Positions 8,773 to 22,472 of a DNA stretch of 36,768 nt are shown in pieces (position 1 is the stretch's first letter; every line of letters starts with the position of its first letter). A model generated the notes under the pieces. That model ran no database searches. It was given only the letters and a program-made list of their open reading frames with translations, and had not been told where the DNA came from. This DNA is from Dehalococcoidia bacterium (lineage in GTDB: Bacteria > Chloroflexota > Dehalococcoidia > UBA2979), in assembly GCA_003599735.1 (NCBI GenBank), contig QZJI01000029.1, positions 1 through 36,768 on the forward strand. The letters are read 5' to 3'. A program made the translations under genes and the position numbers.

Positions 8773-9560
8773 AGCGCGCACGGGTCGGCAACGTCGAGGT
8801 CGTCGCGCTCGTCGACTGCGTCGAGTCGTACGACGCGAACTCGGTCTACGTGGACGCCGTCGAGGCGATCGCACCGCTGAGCGGCTACCTCGACAGCGAG
8901 GGACGCGTCGCGCTGAACTTCGGCTGCTTCCTGCTGCGCGAGGGCGGGCGCACGATCCTCGTCGACACCGGCTGGGGGCCGGAGCACCACGGGCTGCTCC
9001 CGGACGAACTGCGCGAGGCCGGCGTGGGCCTGGACGAGGTCGACACAGTGATCTTCACGCACCTGCACGGCGACCATACGGCGTGGAACCTCGACCGCGC
9101 GACGGGCAAGCCGATGTTCCCGCGGGCGCGCTACCTCGTCCCGCGCGCGGACTGGGACCACTACAGCGCGGCGGGCTCCGCCTCGTTCGTCCGTGATGTC
9201 GCGCCGCTCGAACGGCTCGGCTGCCTCGACCTGATCGAGGGCGAGCGTGTGCTCATGCCGTCGATAACGACGCTGCCGACGCCGGGACACACGCCGGGAC
9301 ACACCAGCATCGCCATCGTCTCCGGCGGGGAGCGCGGGCTCATCCTCGGCGACGTGGTGCTCTCCGAAGTGGACGCGGTGCTCCCGGACCTCCTGAGTAC
9401 CTTCGACGAGGATCGCGAACTGGCACAAAGGACGCGCCGCGCGATCCTCCAGCGGCTCCTCGACGACGGCTCGCTGGTGGGCGCGAGCCACATCCGCGCG
9501 CCCGGCCTCGGCCATTTCGTGCGCGAGGGCACCGGCACGCGTTGGCGGCCGCTGGCGTAG
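8769..9560 (+). CDS. Metallo-beta-lactamase (MBL) fold metal-dependent hydrolase
   Basis: 263 aa. The zinc motif HxHxDH is complete as THLHGDH (His98, His100, Asp102, His103). It is preceded by ILVDTGWG, and the later metal His lies in TPGHTPGHTS. Such proteins hydrolyse lactones, thioesters (glyoxalase II type) or sulfur compounds. The arrangement resembles AHL-lactonase and other small MBL hydrolases. It overlaps the preceding hydrolase by 4 nt (ATGA) and is 11 nt from the next gene, so it is translationally coupled within the four-gene operon. A short coding duplication at about 9280-9305 produces the TPGHTPGH repeat, which is a common feature of the family. Confidence 0.9.
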   Translation: MKRARVGNVEVVALVDCVESYDANSVYVDAVEAIAPLSGYLDSEGRVALNFGCFLLREGGRTILVDTGWGPEHHGLLPDELREAGVGLDEVDTVIFTHLHGDHTAWNLDRATGKPMFPRARYLVPRADWDHYSAAGSASFVRDVAPLERLGCLDLIEGERVLMPSITTLPTPGHTPGHTSIAIVSGGERGLILGDVVLSEVDAVLPDLLSTFDEDRELAQRTRRAILQRLLDDGSLVGASHIRAPGLGHFVREGTGTRWRPLA

Positions 9561-9571
9561 AGAGGCCAGCG

Positions 9572-11137
9572 ATGCCGCTGCCCGCGTTCACCCTCGACAG
9601 CACCGATGGGCCGCGTGCGTTCCCGACGGGGCGGGCGGCGCTGCTGTGCTTCGTGAAGGAGGACTGCCCGACGTGCGGGCTCTCGATGCCGTTGATCGAG
9701 GCGGCGCACCGGGCGTTCAGCGGCGAGGTGGACGTGCTGATCGTGGGTCAGGACGCCGAGGGGAACGCGGTGCTGGTGGAGCGGCACGGGATGACGGCGC
9801 CGGTGCTGGACGACTCCGCGCTACGCGTGTCGTTCGCCTACGACCTGGACACCGTGCCCACGGTGATCCTCGCAGGGCCTACCGGCGAAGAGCGGACGCG
9901 GTTTGTGGGGTTCGGGCGGGACGACTGGCGACACCTCATGGCGTCGCTCGCGGAGGCCTCGGGGCTGCGGGAGCCCGCGGTGGACTGGGACGCCTACCCG
10001 GAGTCGCGGCCGGGGTGCGGCTCGAAGTCGGTGGAGCCGGGGATGGCGGAACGCCTCGAGGCGGAGGCGAGCGGGAGCCCGCTGCGCGCGCGGCGGATCG
10101 AGATCGCGGCGCAGGACGACGAGTTCGAGTTCATGTTCGACCAGGGGCTGACCGACGGCCTCCCGGTCGTGCCGCCGACGCCGGAGCGCGTGCTGCGGAT
10201 GCTGCGCGGGACTCGACGGGACGCGCAGGAGGTGGTGGCGGTGGTGCCGCCGAACATGGCGCCCGCGACCACCGAGAAGATTGCGATCAACGCGGTGATG
10301 GCGGGGTGCCGCCCGGAGTACCTGCCGGTCGTGATCGCGGCGGTCGAGGCGGTCTGCACGGACACCTTCAACGCGCACGGGGTGATGGCGACCACGATGG
10401 GGGCCGCACCGGTACTGGTGGTGAACGGGCCTGTCCGGCACCGCATCGGGATGAACATGGGCCTCGGCGTGCTGGGACAGGGGAACCGCGCGAACGCGAC
10501 GATCGGACGCGCACTGATGCTGGTGCTGCGCAACGTGGGCGGCGCGAAGCCGGGCGGCACGGAGCGATCGACCTTCGGTTCGCCGACGAAGTACACGATG
10601 GCGTTCGCGGAGTGGGAGGAGCGCAGCCCGTGGACGCCGCTCCACGTCGAGCGCGGCTTCCGCGCGGAGCAGAGTGTCGTCACCGCCTTCGGCATGACGG
10701 GCGGCCCGCACCTGATCGTCGACCAGACATCGAGGAGCGCGCGCGCCCTTGGCGGCAGCATCGCCGTGGGGCTCGAATCCGCGGCGCATCCGAAGGCGCA
10801 CCGGTACGGCGACGTCCTGCTGGTAGTCGGGCCGGAACACCTCAACACGCTGACGCGCGACGGCTACACGACGAAGGAGCAGCTGCGCGCCCGGGTGCAG
10901 GAGGTGACGGCGCGGCCGATGGCCGATCTGGTTGCGGACGACGACGTGGGCGGCGGCGGCGCACCCGCCTCGCTAACATCGGAGCAACGGGCGCGGCTCG
11001 TGCCGAAATTCGAGGCGCCCGAGCGGATCAACATCGTGGTCGCGGGTGCGGACGCCGGGAAGTGGTCGGCGTTCTTCGCCGGCTGGACGACCGGGCCGGG
11101 CGGCACCATCCCTACGAGCCGGATCATCGAGGAGTAG
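9572..11137 (+). CDS. Thioredoxin-fold (TlpA-like) domain fused to a large uncharacterised domain
   Basis: 521 aa. The N-terminal domain (residues 1-135) is a thioredoxin/redoxin fold with the redox motif CPTC (Cys32-Cys35) and the cis-Pro segment DTVPTV (Pro96). A linker with an extra cysteine (PGCGSKS) leads into a domain of about 330 residues. That domain begins near LTDGLPVVPPTPERV and contains long Gly/Asn-rich conserved-looking stretches (NMGLGVLGQGNRANATIGRA). I recognise this second domain only as one found in uncharacterised proteins near UGSC-type genes. Start ATG 9572 is chosen because GAGAGG lies 6 nt upstream and the redoxin strand begins directly. It is followed 9 nt later by the selenoprotein gene. 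A dithiol-dependent enzyme working with that selenoprotein is inferred. Confidence 0.75.
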   Translation: MPLPAFTLDSTDGPRAFPTGRAALLCFVKEDCPTCGLSMPLIEAAHRAFSGEVDVLIVGQDAEGNAVLVERHGMTAPVLDDSALRVSFAYDLDTVPTVILAGPTGEERTRFVGFGRDDWRHLMASLAEASGLREPAVDWDAYPESRPGCGSKSVEPGMAERLEAEASGSPLRARRIEIAAQDDEFEFMFDQGLTDGLPVVPPTPERVLRMLRGTRRDAQEVVAVVPPNMAPATTEKIAINAVMAGCRPEYLPVVIAAVEAVCTDTFNAHGVMATTMGAAPVLVVNGPVRHRIGMNMGLGVLGQGNRANATIGRALMLVLRNVGGAKPGGTERSTFGSPTKYTMAFAEWEERSPWTPLHVERGFRAEQSVVTAFGMTGGPHLIVDQTSRSARALGGSIAVGLESAAHPKAHRYGDVLLVVGPEHLNTLTRDGYTTKEQLRARVQEVTARPMADLVADDDVGGGGAPASLTSEQRARLVPKFEAPERINIVVAGADAGKWSAFFAGWTTGPGGTIPTSRIIEE

Positions 11138-11146
11138 GATGCGGCC

Positions 11147-11668
11147 ATGACGCTGATCCTCGACCCCACCGATGAGCGTGTGCCGGTTCGGCGGTCGCTG
11201 ACCGCGCGGCCGGAACACCTGCGCGGCGTGGTCGGGCTCCTCGACATCTCGAAGCCGCGCGGCAACGTCTTCCTCGACCGCCTCGAAGCGATCTTCGGCG
11301 AGCGGCTGCCGGAGGTAGAGGTCCGTCGCTACCGGAAGCCAACGTTCACCAAGCCGGCACCGGAGGACCTGCGACGAAAAATCCTGGAGGAGTGCGGCTT
11401 CGTCATCGAAGCCCTCGCCGACTGAGGATCCTGCACGACGTGCAGTGTGCACGACACCGTCTACTTCGAAACGCAGGGCCGGCCCTCCGTCTTCCTCGCC
11501 TCGACCGAGTTCGTGGACGCGGCGGAAGCGCAGTCGGTCGCCCTCGGGCTGCCGGAGGTACGCCGCGTCTTCGTGCCGCACCCGATCCAGGACGCCCTCG
11601 ACGCCGAGATGCAGGCGAAGGCCGAAGCCGCCTTCGAGGCCGTGGTCGCCGCGCTTCTCGACGGCTGA
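11147..11668 (+). CDS. UGSC-family selenoprotein (in-frame UGA read as selenocysteine)
   Basis: 173 aa if TGA at 11423-11425 is decoded as selenocysteine. The frame before it encodes 92 residues and the same frame after it encodes 80 more before a TGA stop at 11666-11668. The junction reads U-G-S-C-T-T-C (Sec93, Cys96, Cys99), the hallmark of the UGSC family of known selenoproteins and their Cys homologues. The downstream half (HDTVYFETQGRPSVF, then LGLPEVRRVFVPHPI) looks like that family's continuation. A SECIS-like hairpin follows the UGA. Start ATG 11147 has AGGA 7 nt upstream. The second half has no ribosome-binding site of its own. It is the fourth gene of a redox operon after the CPTC fusion protein. 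The reaction is unknown; redox catalysis by Sec/Cys is inferred. Decoding needs selA/selB/selC/selD, which are not in this window. Confidence 0.88.
11439..11453 (+). promoter_or_regulatory. Candidate bacterial SECIS hairpin
   Basis: CGUGCA (11439-11444), loop GUG (11445-11447), UGCACG (11448-11453): a perfect 6-bp stem with G as first loop base. The apical loop begins 20 nt after the UGA, within the 16-37 nt window described for bacterial SECIS elements. An alternative stem CTGCAC-GAC-GTGCAG (11431-11445) overlaps it and also has G first in the loop, but lies closer to the UGA. Confidence 0.6.
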
Positions 11669-18400: not shown

Positions 18401-19920
18401 GCGGGCACCTCGCGGCGTTCGGCGTAAGCGACGTTGGCGGCGGCGTAGGAACGCTCCCACTGCGGCTGTACGGCGATGAACGCCTCGACACAGCGGGGGT
18501 CGAAGTGCGAACCGGCATCCTTGCGGATGATGGCGGCTGCCTCATCGGGGGTCATGGGGACGCGGTACGAGCGGTTCGAGCGGAGGGCGTCGTAGACATC
18601 GGCGACGGCGGCGATGCGCGCCTCCAGCGGGATCGCCTCGCCAGCGAGGCGATCGGGGTAGCCGGTGCCGTCCCACTTTTCGTGATGGTGCCGGATCACC
18701 ATCGACTCCACGTCCGAACCGAAGGTGAAGCGCAGGATCTCCCAGCCGCGGCCGGGGTGCTCACGGATGATGCCGAACTCCTCGTCCGTGAGCCGCCCCG
18801 CCTTGTGCAGGATCGCGTCCGGGATGCCGATCTTCCCGACGTCATGCAGCAACGCACCTGCCGCCAGGCCGCGCAGCCGAGGACCAGGCAGCCGCATCTG
18901 CTCGCCCACGAGCACGCTCATCGCAGCAACGCGTTCGCCGTGGCCCAGCGTGTATCCGTCGCGCGCCTCGAGCGCCGCCGTCAGCGTGAGGATCGGCTCG
19001 GTGAGCCCGCTCCTCAGTTGTTCGACGGCGCCCGAGACCGTGAGCGCGGCGAAGGAGTGGACGGTGCGGCCACGCGAGTACTCGAGCACGACGCCCCAGA
19101 GCACGGCGAAGAAACCAGCGAGCAGTTGCAGGTGGTAGAGCCAGAAAGTGCCGCGCCAGATCGCGCCGAAGTGAAGCGAGAGTTGCGCCTGCACGAGCAG
19201 GGCCGCGCCGAGGGCGACCGCGCCGAACATTTGCTGGCCGGTGCGGGCGTACCCCGCGGCGTAACGCACAGCGGTGGTCGTCCCGATCAGCACGACAGAG
19301 GCGAGCGTCATCCACGTGAGCACGACGCTGCCAACAAGCCAGCCGGGTACGGTCTCTGGCCGCGTCAGGCCGACGATGGCGTAGGCGAACAGCACCGCGA
19401 TCACCAGGCCGAGGATGGCGCCGCGCCAGCGGACGATCGCCCGCTCGACGGGCCTCGGCCATTCGACCGTGCTGGCGGCCAGGAAGGCGGCGGAGACGAC
19501 GACGGCGAGGCGTGCGGAGAGGCCCGTCAGGTTGAACAACCAGATGGCCGGGGCGGATTCGGGCGCGCCGCTGAAGCCGTAACCGCCGGCCGTGGAATAG
19601 GAGCCGGTGTAGCTGCTGGCCACCATCACGCCCGGTGTCGCCAAACCATGGACGGTGAAGAGCCCGGCCATCGACAGGAAAGCGAGCGCCAGCATGAGCA
19701 CGCGGGCATTGCGGGCGCGGAAGGCGGCGACACCAGCGGCGACGGCCAGCAGAAGGCAGGTGATGGCGGCGGCGGAGACAACCCAGAAGTGGCCGACCGG
19801 CGACGCCCATTGGATCGCGCGATCCCAGTCCGTCTGAGCGCGCAGGGCGAGGAATGCGGCGCTCGACGCGGCCAGCAGCACGAGCCAAGGCAGGACGGTC
19901 GGGAGCGACCGGCGAAGCAT
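18397..19920 (-). CDS. Membrane-anchored HD-GYP domain protein (putative c-di-GMP phosphodiesterase)
   Basis: 507 aa. The N-terminal 270 residues contain about seven or eight hydrophobic helices. The C-terminal HD-GYP domain has the metal-binding HD in LLHDVGKIGIP, then EHPGRGWEIL and HHHEKWDGTGYPD with the GYP loop. HD-GYP proteins hydrolyse c-di-GMP to GMP or pGpG. The helices carry no PAS or GAF domain, so they probably are the sensor. Start ATG 19920 is preferred because AAGGGG lies 6 nt upstream; an in-frame ATG two codons earlier abuts that site. It heads an operon with the 48-aa protein and modABC and is divergent from the CoA-transferase gene (114-nt gap). Confidence 0.9.
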   Translation of the reverse strand: MLRRSLPTVLPWLVLLAASSAAFLALRAQTDWDRAIQWASPVGHFWVVSAAAITCLLLAVAAGVAAFRARNARVLMLALAFLSMAGLFTVHGLATPGVMVASSYTGSYSTAGGYGFSGAPESAPAIWLFNLTGLSARLAVVVSAAFLAASTVEWPRPVERAIVRWRGAILGLVIAVLFAYAIVGLTRPETVPGWLVGSVVLTWMTLASVVLIGTTTAVRYAAGYARTGQQMFGAVALGAALLVQAQLSLHFGAIWRGTFWLYHLQLLAGFFAVLWGVVLEYSRGRTVHSFAALTVSGAVEQLRSGLTEPILTLTAALEARDGYTLGHGERVAAMSVLVGEQMRLPGPRLRGLAAGALLHDVGKIGIPDAILHKAGRLTDEEFGIIREHPGRGWEILRFTFGSDVESMVIRHHHEKWDGTGYPDRLAGEAIPLEARIAAVADVYDALRSNRSYRVPMTPDEAAAIIRKDAGSHFDPRCVEAFIAVQPQWERSYAAANVAYAERREVPA

Positions 19921-20034
19921 GCGCATCCCCTTAGCAGTCGCCGAGGCCCAGCGTACCGCGCTACGCCCGGCAACGCTCGCCGTCCGGCTATCATCCGCGC
20001 GCGGCCTGCGGGACGCGGCAGCGGAGGGCGGACG

Positions 20035-22472
20035 ATGCTCGAAGGCGTACGCGTGGTGGACCTCTCCCGCGATCCGGGCGCGGCCTACGCGGCGCGGATG
20101 TTCGCCCTGCTGGGCGCGGACGTGGTGAAGGTGGAGCCGCCCGAGGGTGACCCGGCGCGCCGTCGCGGGCCGCGGCGCGGCGATGACGGGGAATCGAGCG
20201 CGCTGTTCGCCTACCTGAACGCGGCCAAACGCTCCGCCATCCTCGACTCCGCTGTTGATGCTGACCGGACGACGTTGCTGCGCCTGATCGGACACGCCGA
20301 CGTGGTGTTCGAGGACGGCGCGCCGGGCTGGTGGAAGGCACGCGGCATCGATTTCGCCGCGCTGACGGCAACGTACTCTCAACTCGTCGTGGTGTCTGTG
20401 ACACCGTTTGGACAGGACGGCCCACGTGCGGGATGGCGTGCGACGGCGCTGACGTCACTCGCCTCGAGCGGTCAACTGGCGCTGAGCGGCGACCCCGATG
20501 CGCCACCGCTGAAGGTGGTGGGCCAGCAGGCGTATTACCAGGGCGGGCTGCATGCGTTCTCCGCCGCGCTCACGGCGCTGTACGCCGTCCGCCGCGAGGG
20601 TCTCGGCGATTGGATCGACCTCTCGCTACAGGAAGTGCAAGCGGCGAGCCTAGAGGCGGCCGGCCCGGTCGCGATGGTGCGTGAGCTCGACACCGGTCGC
20701 GCCGGCAACCAGGCACGCGCGGTATGGGGGATCTACCCGTGTGCCGACGGCTACGTGGGTGTCGCCTCGATGGCGCGGCAGACCGGCTCCGTCTACCGCT
20801 GCATCGAGCACCCTGAACTCGCCGAGGACCCGCGCTTCGCCGACCTCATCAATAACCCAGAGATGAACGAGGTCGCCTCGATGTTGATTGAGGAGTGGAC
20901 GATGGCGCGAAGGGCGCAGGAGATCTTCGAAGCGTCGCAACGGCACCGAGCGCCGTTCTCGCTGATCCCAACGCCTCGCGACTTGTTGGAATGGGCACCG
21001 CTGCGGGCCTCCGGCTTTTGGAGCGAGGTCACGCATCCCACGCTCGGCACACATCCGCTGCCCGGCGCGCCTTTTACTCTCAACGGGGAGCGGGCCCGCG
21101 CCACACGGCCTGCGCCGCTCCTCGGCCAGCACACCGACGAGGTCATGCGCGAGGCGGCGGAGCCACCCCCGGCAGCCCCAGCCTCCGGCGGCCATGCCAC
21201 ACGCCTCCCGTTCGATGGCCTGCGCGTCCTGGATCTTTCGCAGGTGTGGGCGGGGCCGTACGCGGCGCGGTTCCTCGCGGACATGGGCGCGGACGTGATC
21301 CATATCGAAGGGCCGGGGTTTCCGGACGCCGTGCGTGGCCTGATGCGCAGCGATGATCCGCGATCGTTCAACAAGGCGACCTACTTCAACGAGTACAACC
21401 GGAACAAGCGAGGCCTCGCACTTGACCTCCACCGGCCGGAGGGGATGGAGGCGTTCAAGCGGCTCGTGCCGCTCGCTGACGTCGTGATCGAGAACTGGAG
21501 CGTCGGCGTCTCGGAGCGTCTCGACATCGGATACGACGAACTGCGCGCACTGAACCCGCGCATCGTGTTCGTACAGATGCCGGGCTTTTCGAAAGATCTA
21601 CCGGAGTCGGAGCGAGTCGGCTTCGGGCCAACGATCGAACAGATGGGCGGCCTCGTCGCGTTGCAGGGGTATCAAGGCGGGCCGCCGCATAAGAGCGGCA
21701 TCTCGTATGGTGACCCCATCGCGGGATCGTGGCCGCCGGCGCGACCGCCCTCGGCCTCTGGCGCCGCGAAGGCAGCGGCGAGGGGTGCCACATCGTCGTG
21801 TCGCAACGCGATAACGTCATCGGGATGGTCGGAGAGTTCATGGTCGCGGAAGCCCTCGATATTGATTACCCGGTGCGTGACGGCAACCGCGACCCGGACG
21901 CCGCGCCGCACAACGTCTACCGTACCCGCGACGACAACAGTCGCTGGCAAGGTGACGCGCTCGGCCAGCCGGTGGCGGAGTTCCATGACACCTGGGTCAC
22001 GATTGCGGTTGACTCGGACGAGGCGTGGCGCGCGCTCCGCGGGGTTGTGCGGGAGGCACGCCTCGACGACCCGACATACGCGACGCTGTCCGGCCGGAAA
22101 GCCGCGGAGGCCGCCATCGATGCCGTGGTCGGTGAATGGGCACGGGGACGGGACGCGACCGAGGTGGCGGAAGCGCTGCAGGTGGCGGGCGTCGCAGCCT
22201 GTCCGGTGCTGACGCCGCTGATGCTGGTGCGGGACGCCCACCTCGCGGCACGGGAGAACTTCCCGACGACGGCGCATCCCGAAGCCGGCGAGGTCCGCAC
22301 GTCACGCCCGGTGTGGCGGATGGCGCGGCGGCCCACGCCCCGGCCCGCGCCCGCACCGACTTTCGGCCAGCACAACCGAGAGGTGCTGCGCGACCTAGCG
22401 CACTACAGCGACGCCGAGGTAGACGCATTCGAGGCGGACGGGATCATCGCGACCATCCCGACGCGATCATGA
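20035..22472 (+). pseudogene. Tandem-domain CaiB/BaiF CoA-transferase interrupted by a one-base frameshift
   Basis: Two full class III CoA-transferase domains in one polypeptide, 812 aa if the frame is restored. Domain 1 (residues 1 to about 380) opens LEGVRVVDLSRDPGAAYAARM and has the catalytic Asp in WIDLSLQE (Asp195). Domain 2 starts near residue 391 (FDGLRVLDLSQVWAGPYAARF). Similarity runs in one frame to ISYGDPIAG (about 21723) and resumes one base out of phase at VAAGATALGLW (from 21729), which fits a single lost base around 21724-21728. At the catalytic Asp position of domain 2 the codon is GTC (21795-21797, Val). Start ATG 20035 has GGAGGG upstream. The stop overlaps the cobO start (ATGA). 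Either a sequencing error, a recent pseudogene or (less likely) programmed shifting. Confidence 0.85.

Follow-up and report, generated by a model that had tools for sequence, protein, structure and literature searches.

A UGSC-family selenoprotein gene in a Dehalococcoidia genome, its conserved partner, and a possible relationship to the GrdB selenocysteine domain

The window analyzed here is positions 1–36,768 of contig QZJI01000029.1 (assembly GCA_003599735.1) from a Dehalococcoidia bacterium; the UGSC gene, its partner gene, and the features within and around them are on the forward strand. Positions 11147–11668 read as a single selenoprotein gene of the UGSC family, encoding 173 aa with selenocysteine (Sec) at residue 93. 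In the fuller interpretation, which seems to us somewhat the better bet, this protein carries a GrdB-like Sec domain and acts together with the product of the gene immediately upstream as a thioredoxin-fed reductase of the Grd/Prd type. The UGSC family has been named since at least 2008 (PMC2398784), and was still uncharacterised in a 2026 review (PMC13188914). As a selenoprotein, the product of this gene simply extends this known family; what is added is a proposal for its function, which combines a Sec domain resembling that of GrdB, a partner that is almost always present and has no family model, and a thioredoxin domain within the system as the source of electrons. If the proposal is true, many other bacteria, aerobes included, have a counterpart of the reductase chemistry known from amino-acid-fermenting anaerobes.

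The reading frame and its in-frame UGA

The UGSC gene begins at ATG 11147, 9 bp beyond the end of the partner gene, which stops at 11137; a possible Shine-Dalgarno sequence, AGGAG, can be read directly in the sequence at 11130–11134. The frame meets a TGA at 11423–11425, continues open through GSCTTCS, and ends at the TGA at 11666–11668, taken as the true stop codon both from the reading frame and from the PF24696 match, which ends there. This gives 92 residues, Sec, and 80 more. The sequence-only reading had given the coordinates of this frame correctly, but counted 74 further codons past GSCTTCS where there are 73. Read with Sec, the protein is MTLILDPTDER...VIEALADUGSCTTCSVHD...VPHP..., with UGSCTTC as residues 93–99. 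Under translation table 11 the same frame yields a 92-aa ORF (11147–11425), and GTG 11447 is a possible in-frame start for a 73-aa remnant ORF downstream; inspection by eye revealed no ribosome-binding site for the part of the frame 3′ of TGA 11423. It had been suggested that routine annotation would miss the protein. This is only partly right, because NCBIfam and Pfam already include UGSC models.

Both of these models match the 173-aa sequence above their cut-offs, in agreement with the family assignment originally made without database searches: NF041046 (UGSC_fam) at 154.3 bits (cut-off 125), and PF24696 at 148.4 bits (cut-off 25). Taken separately, the two halves match consecutive parts of the UGSC model (upstream, positions 2–92 at 1.9e-14; downstream, positions 94–171 at 5.4e-20), which argues that the open frame past the TGA is not there by chance. 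In homologues from the same genus, third codon positions are the main site of substitution on both sides of the TGA: for one of these (L039), there are 5, 3, and 32 substitutions at codon positions 1, 2, and 3 upstream and 3, 2, and 17 downstream; for another (L037), 10, 1, and 21 upstream and 3, 2, and 19 downstream. With the UGSC family (PF24696, NF041046; PMC2398784) the window protein has in common a full-length match, Sec in U-G-S-C, and the HD, GxP, and VPHP motifs. It is encoded by its own gene apart from the partner, rather than fused to it, and otherwise shows no essential difference from the family.

Conservation of the Sec codon was followed in a sample consisting of 81 UGSC copies from relatives and the copies flanking the best 80 partner loci in named genomes. 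There is a TGA at the aligned Sec codon, one per copy, in 155 complete copies; two truncated matches (L145 and L161) fall outside this number. A fused UGSC–partner copy (L092, 2907–4523) has neither Sec nor Cys at the site, and no Cys form was found anywhere in the sample, relatives and flanking copies included. Of the Sec and Cys versions that the sequence-only reading had ascribed to the family, then, only the former was encountered here, although 21 Cys forms are counted in the literature, alongside 255 Sec forms, from ocean data (PMC2398784). Candidatus Blastococcus massiliensis (L152) has TAG at the exact Sec codon, and the tRNA-Sec in its genome has the anticodon CUA. UGSC proteins with UAG-encoded Sec have already been reported from the Geodermatophilaceae (PMC5330540), with the same combination of TAG site and tRNA-Sec CUA, and L152 is such a case; the window gene differs from that system in having an ordinary UGA and tRNA-Sec UCA.

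Positions 93, 94, and 96 of the UGSC alignment are nearly invariant. Cys96 is present in 154 of the 155 copies and Cys99 in 109, and it is plausible from the sequence that Sec93 forms a selenol/dithiol redox center with these two cysteines.

Hairpin and selenocysteine machinery

A SECIS-like hairpin, CGUGCA-GUG-UGCACG, is found at 11439–11453, 14–28 nt after the UGA, with its loop at 11445–11447. With positions counted from the U of the UGA (0), bases 16–21 pair with bases 30–25, leaving a loop of three bases that is usually GUN. Pair 20/26 (11443/11449) connects two third codon positions; of 145 distinct sequences, 142 have a standard pair here (107 C-G, 33 G-C). In shuffled controls, which ignore relatedness, the mean was 91, and none of 2000 reached 142. 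In terms of codons, TGG or GGG at +6 is accompanied by GTC for the valine at +8 in 23 of 23 cases, and TGC at +6 by GTG in 68 of 68. Because GTC and GTG are synonymous, protein constraint is not the cause of this covariation. A covarying hairpin just 3′ of the UGA is what would be looked for in a bacterial selenoprotein. The window contains no Rfam matches and no tRNA genes.

The source assembly (2.0 Mb in 82 contigs, 70% complete) contains a tRNA-Sec with anticodon TCA (65.9 bits), selB, and selA. The lack of selB and selC had been named in advance as a finding that would refute a selenoprotein; both genes are there. Of the four machinery genes to be looked for, selA, selB, and selC were thus located, and selD gave only a sub-threshold match. 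This last is most likely due to incompleteness of the assembly, since a search of 29 relatives found a full selD in 27, all four congeners among them. The selD of most relatives (L210–L213 and others) is interrupted by one TGA, and SelD is probably itself a selenoprotein in these. More broadly, UGSC matches above cut-off were found in 28 of 60 genomes searched, the source genome included; among the other 27, selA was not found in just two (G043 and G057, both ~81% complete). With SelA, SelB, and tRNA-Sec at hand and a SECIS-like hairpin directly behind UGA 11423, Sec is presumably inserted at residue 93.

Other interpretations of the UGA can be weighed against these results. It could be a genuine stop, a sequencing error, or part of a pseudogene, leaving the downstream half as a relic or as a separate gene; GTG 11447 is in frame, and could start such a 73-aa ORF. 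Given that the TGA is kept across phyla, that substitutions downstream are protein-like, that the SECIS covaries, and that a TAG variant occurs with a matching tRNA, this seems vanishingly improbable. It is also very improbable, if slightly less so, that the codon specifies a residue other than Sec, such as Trp or Cys by near-cognate suppression: the genome has tRNA-Sec(UCA), selA, and selB, the hairpin is SECIS-like, and in Blastococcus the Sec codon and the tRNA-Sec anticodon are both altered in a matching way. The family models, the conserved TGA, the covarying hairpin, the presence of selA, selB, and tRNA-Sec, and the Blastococcus TAG with its CUA tRNA-Sec strongly support the original claim of one 173-aa UGSC-family selenoprotein.

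The partner gene and its thioredoxin-like domain

The partner gene (9542–11137, start codon uncertain) encodes a thioredoxin-like domain and an uncharacterised domain of ~365 aa; relatives and other phyla show the same arrangement. The sequence-only reading had noted neither this gene nor the possible relationship to GrdB discussed below. The N-terminal domain (9542–9931) is thioredoxin/redoxin-like, with the motif CPTC; its matches to AhpC-TSA (24.1 bits) and Redoxin (22.1 bits) are weak, both lying below the Pfam cut-offs. The UGSC-associated domain (10037–11134), recognized by alignment, has no match in Pfam or NCBIfam.

The ~365-aa domain is a same-strand neighbor of UGSC, or fused to it, for 76 of the 81 copies in relatives; the remaining five are short or contig-end loci only. 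From the other direction, a UGSC match flanks 78 of the best 80 partner loci in named genomes, with two on the opposite strand, and these loci come from Chloroflexota, Proteobacteria, Actinomycetota, Acidobacteriota, and others. An earlier study already noted UGSC fused to an unknown domain (PMC2398784), which may be the same as the ~365-aa domain, to which UGSC is fused in L092. The predicted model of a fused UGSC–partner protein has a pLDDT of 93.3 and a pTM of 0.93. No PDB match usable for the fold of the partner came from the structure search, in which most hits for the fused model were to its UGSC part.

Among partner copies, 76 of 83 from named genomes and 21 of 84 from relatives carry the thioredoxin domain. 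Its distribution in relatives follows the UGSC type: it is found beside 21 of 34 copies with Cys99 (UxxCxxC) vs. none of 46 others, with no thioredoxin domain in view for the other 13 Cys99-type copies. This association may be a matter of lineage inheritance. In named genomes, selA and selB are in the flanks (at most ~4 kb) of 18 of the best 80 partner loci, and a tRNA-Sec gene in the flanks of 16. As far as checked, the near-constant ~365-aa neighbor domain, frequently joined to a thioredoxin domain with a CxTC motif, is new, as are the confinement of the thioredoxin domain in relatives to neighbors of UxxCxxC-type UGSC and the linkage of selA/selB to the UGSC operon in these 18 named loci.

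On contig C71 of the source genome (5407–8183; L046) lies another UGSC gene, this one of the UGSCTAW type, with a tandem pair of partner-domain genes after it. Some relatives in the same class have many copies, with 12 UGSC matches in G055 and seven in G043; several are fused to the partner domain (L054, L079, L086–L090, and others).

Relation to GrdB and proposed function

The predicted UGSC model (pLDDT 95.8) consists of five beta-alpha units, with Sec starting the third helix; as modeled, rather than solved, the topology is alternating beta/alpha and not that of thioredoxin. By hhalign, in which E-values for UGSC and GrdB refer to a single pair and not to a database, the UGSC profile aligns with GrdB-like domains of relatives at 96.3% and with GrdB of grd loci at 96.8% and 96.1%, with Sec on Sec and the alignment reaching the C-terminus. 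The UGSC–GrdB alignment still scores 55 when the Sec and Cys columns are masked, and the best of 60 column-shuffled controls scores 23. Among the matches listed at E ≤ 1 for 70 UGSC members, PF07355 (GRDB) does not occur, and it does not match the window protein at E ≤ 0.01. At the level of sequence profiles, UGSC looks like a distant relation of the GrdB/PrdB Sec-domain family and not a member of it. The two have in common the Sec-domain profile, UxxCxxC, the coincidence of Sec residues, and an HP motif near the end. They differ in that UGSC has no GRDB Pfam match and a partner unlike either GrdE or GrdB, and that PF09338 (GrdE) has no match in the source genome (70% complete). Unlike the GrdB/PrdB system, UGSC is carried also by Phenylobacterium, Hyphomonas, and Blastococcus, all aerobic genera. 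The open-licence PMC literature yielded no earlier statement of a UGSC–GrdB relationship; as far as checked, this profile alignment with GrdB/PrdB is new, as is the predicted alternating beta/alpha fold in place of the published thioredoxin-like one.

Two further identities for the partner were considered and rejected: GrdE, by profile comparison (0.1%), and another part of GrdB, to which there is no similarity at the profile level. Foldseek and VIA-align searches with the UGSC model found common doubly wound alpha/beta folds only, and no function was drawn from them; the best VIA Z (10.9) was to a designed protein, with many unrelated families nearly as high. No solved structure is significantly related by sequence.

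In glycine reductase, thioredoxin is the electron source (PMC13188914). Judging by the sequence comparisons above, a role as a thioredoxin-fed selenoenzyme reductase is likely for UGSC and its partner. The partner protein (9542–11137) would bind a substrate, which would be attacked by the Sec93 selenolate; Cys96 would resolve the product as a Sec-Cys selenenylsulfide, and Cys99 and the partner's CPTC thioredoxin domain would supply electrons and reset the Sec center. UGSC would in this way work like a thioredoxin-fed Grd/Prd-type reductase, with a partner whose sequence is related neither to GrdE nor to the remainder of GrdB. More tentatively, and at a little short of an even chance, UGSC and its thioredoxin-fused ~365-aa partner could constitute an undescribed selenoenzyme complex, a third Grd/Prd-type branch found in several phyla including aerobic genera, and sometimes equipped with its own selA-selB-tRNA-Sec module.

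A simpler role would be that of a thiol-disulfide or peroxide oxidoreductase acting much as thioredoxin does, the likeness to GrdB not being functional. UGSC has been described as likely Trx-like (PMC2398784) and grouped with proteins of Trx-like fold (PMC13188914), and both its UxxC motif and the thioredoxin domain on the partner would suit such a role. The predicted topology of five alternating beta-alpha units does not, and neither do the profile comparisons, with 1.1% for UGSC against the partner's thioredoxin-like extension and 96% against GrdB domains; we consider this explanation the less likely one, and prefer the thioredoxin-fed reductase.

Short genes for GrdB-like selenoproteins, with UxxC motifs, also occur in relatives (L100–L111); a ferredoxin-like ORF adjoins one of them (L100). 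Elsewhere in the window, a 1235-aa ORF at 18505–22212 has two matches to CoA-transferase family III.
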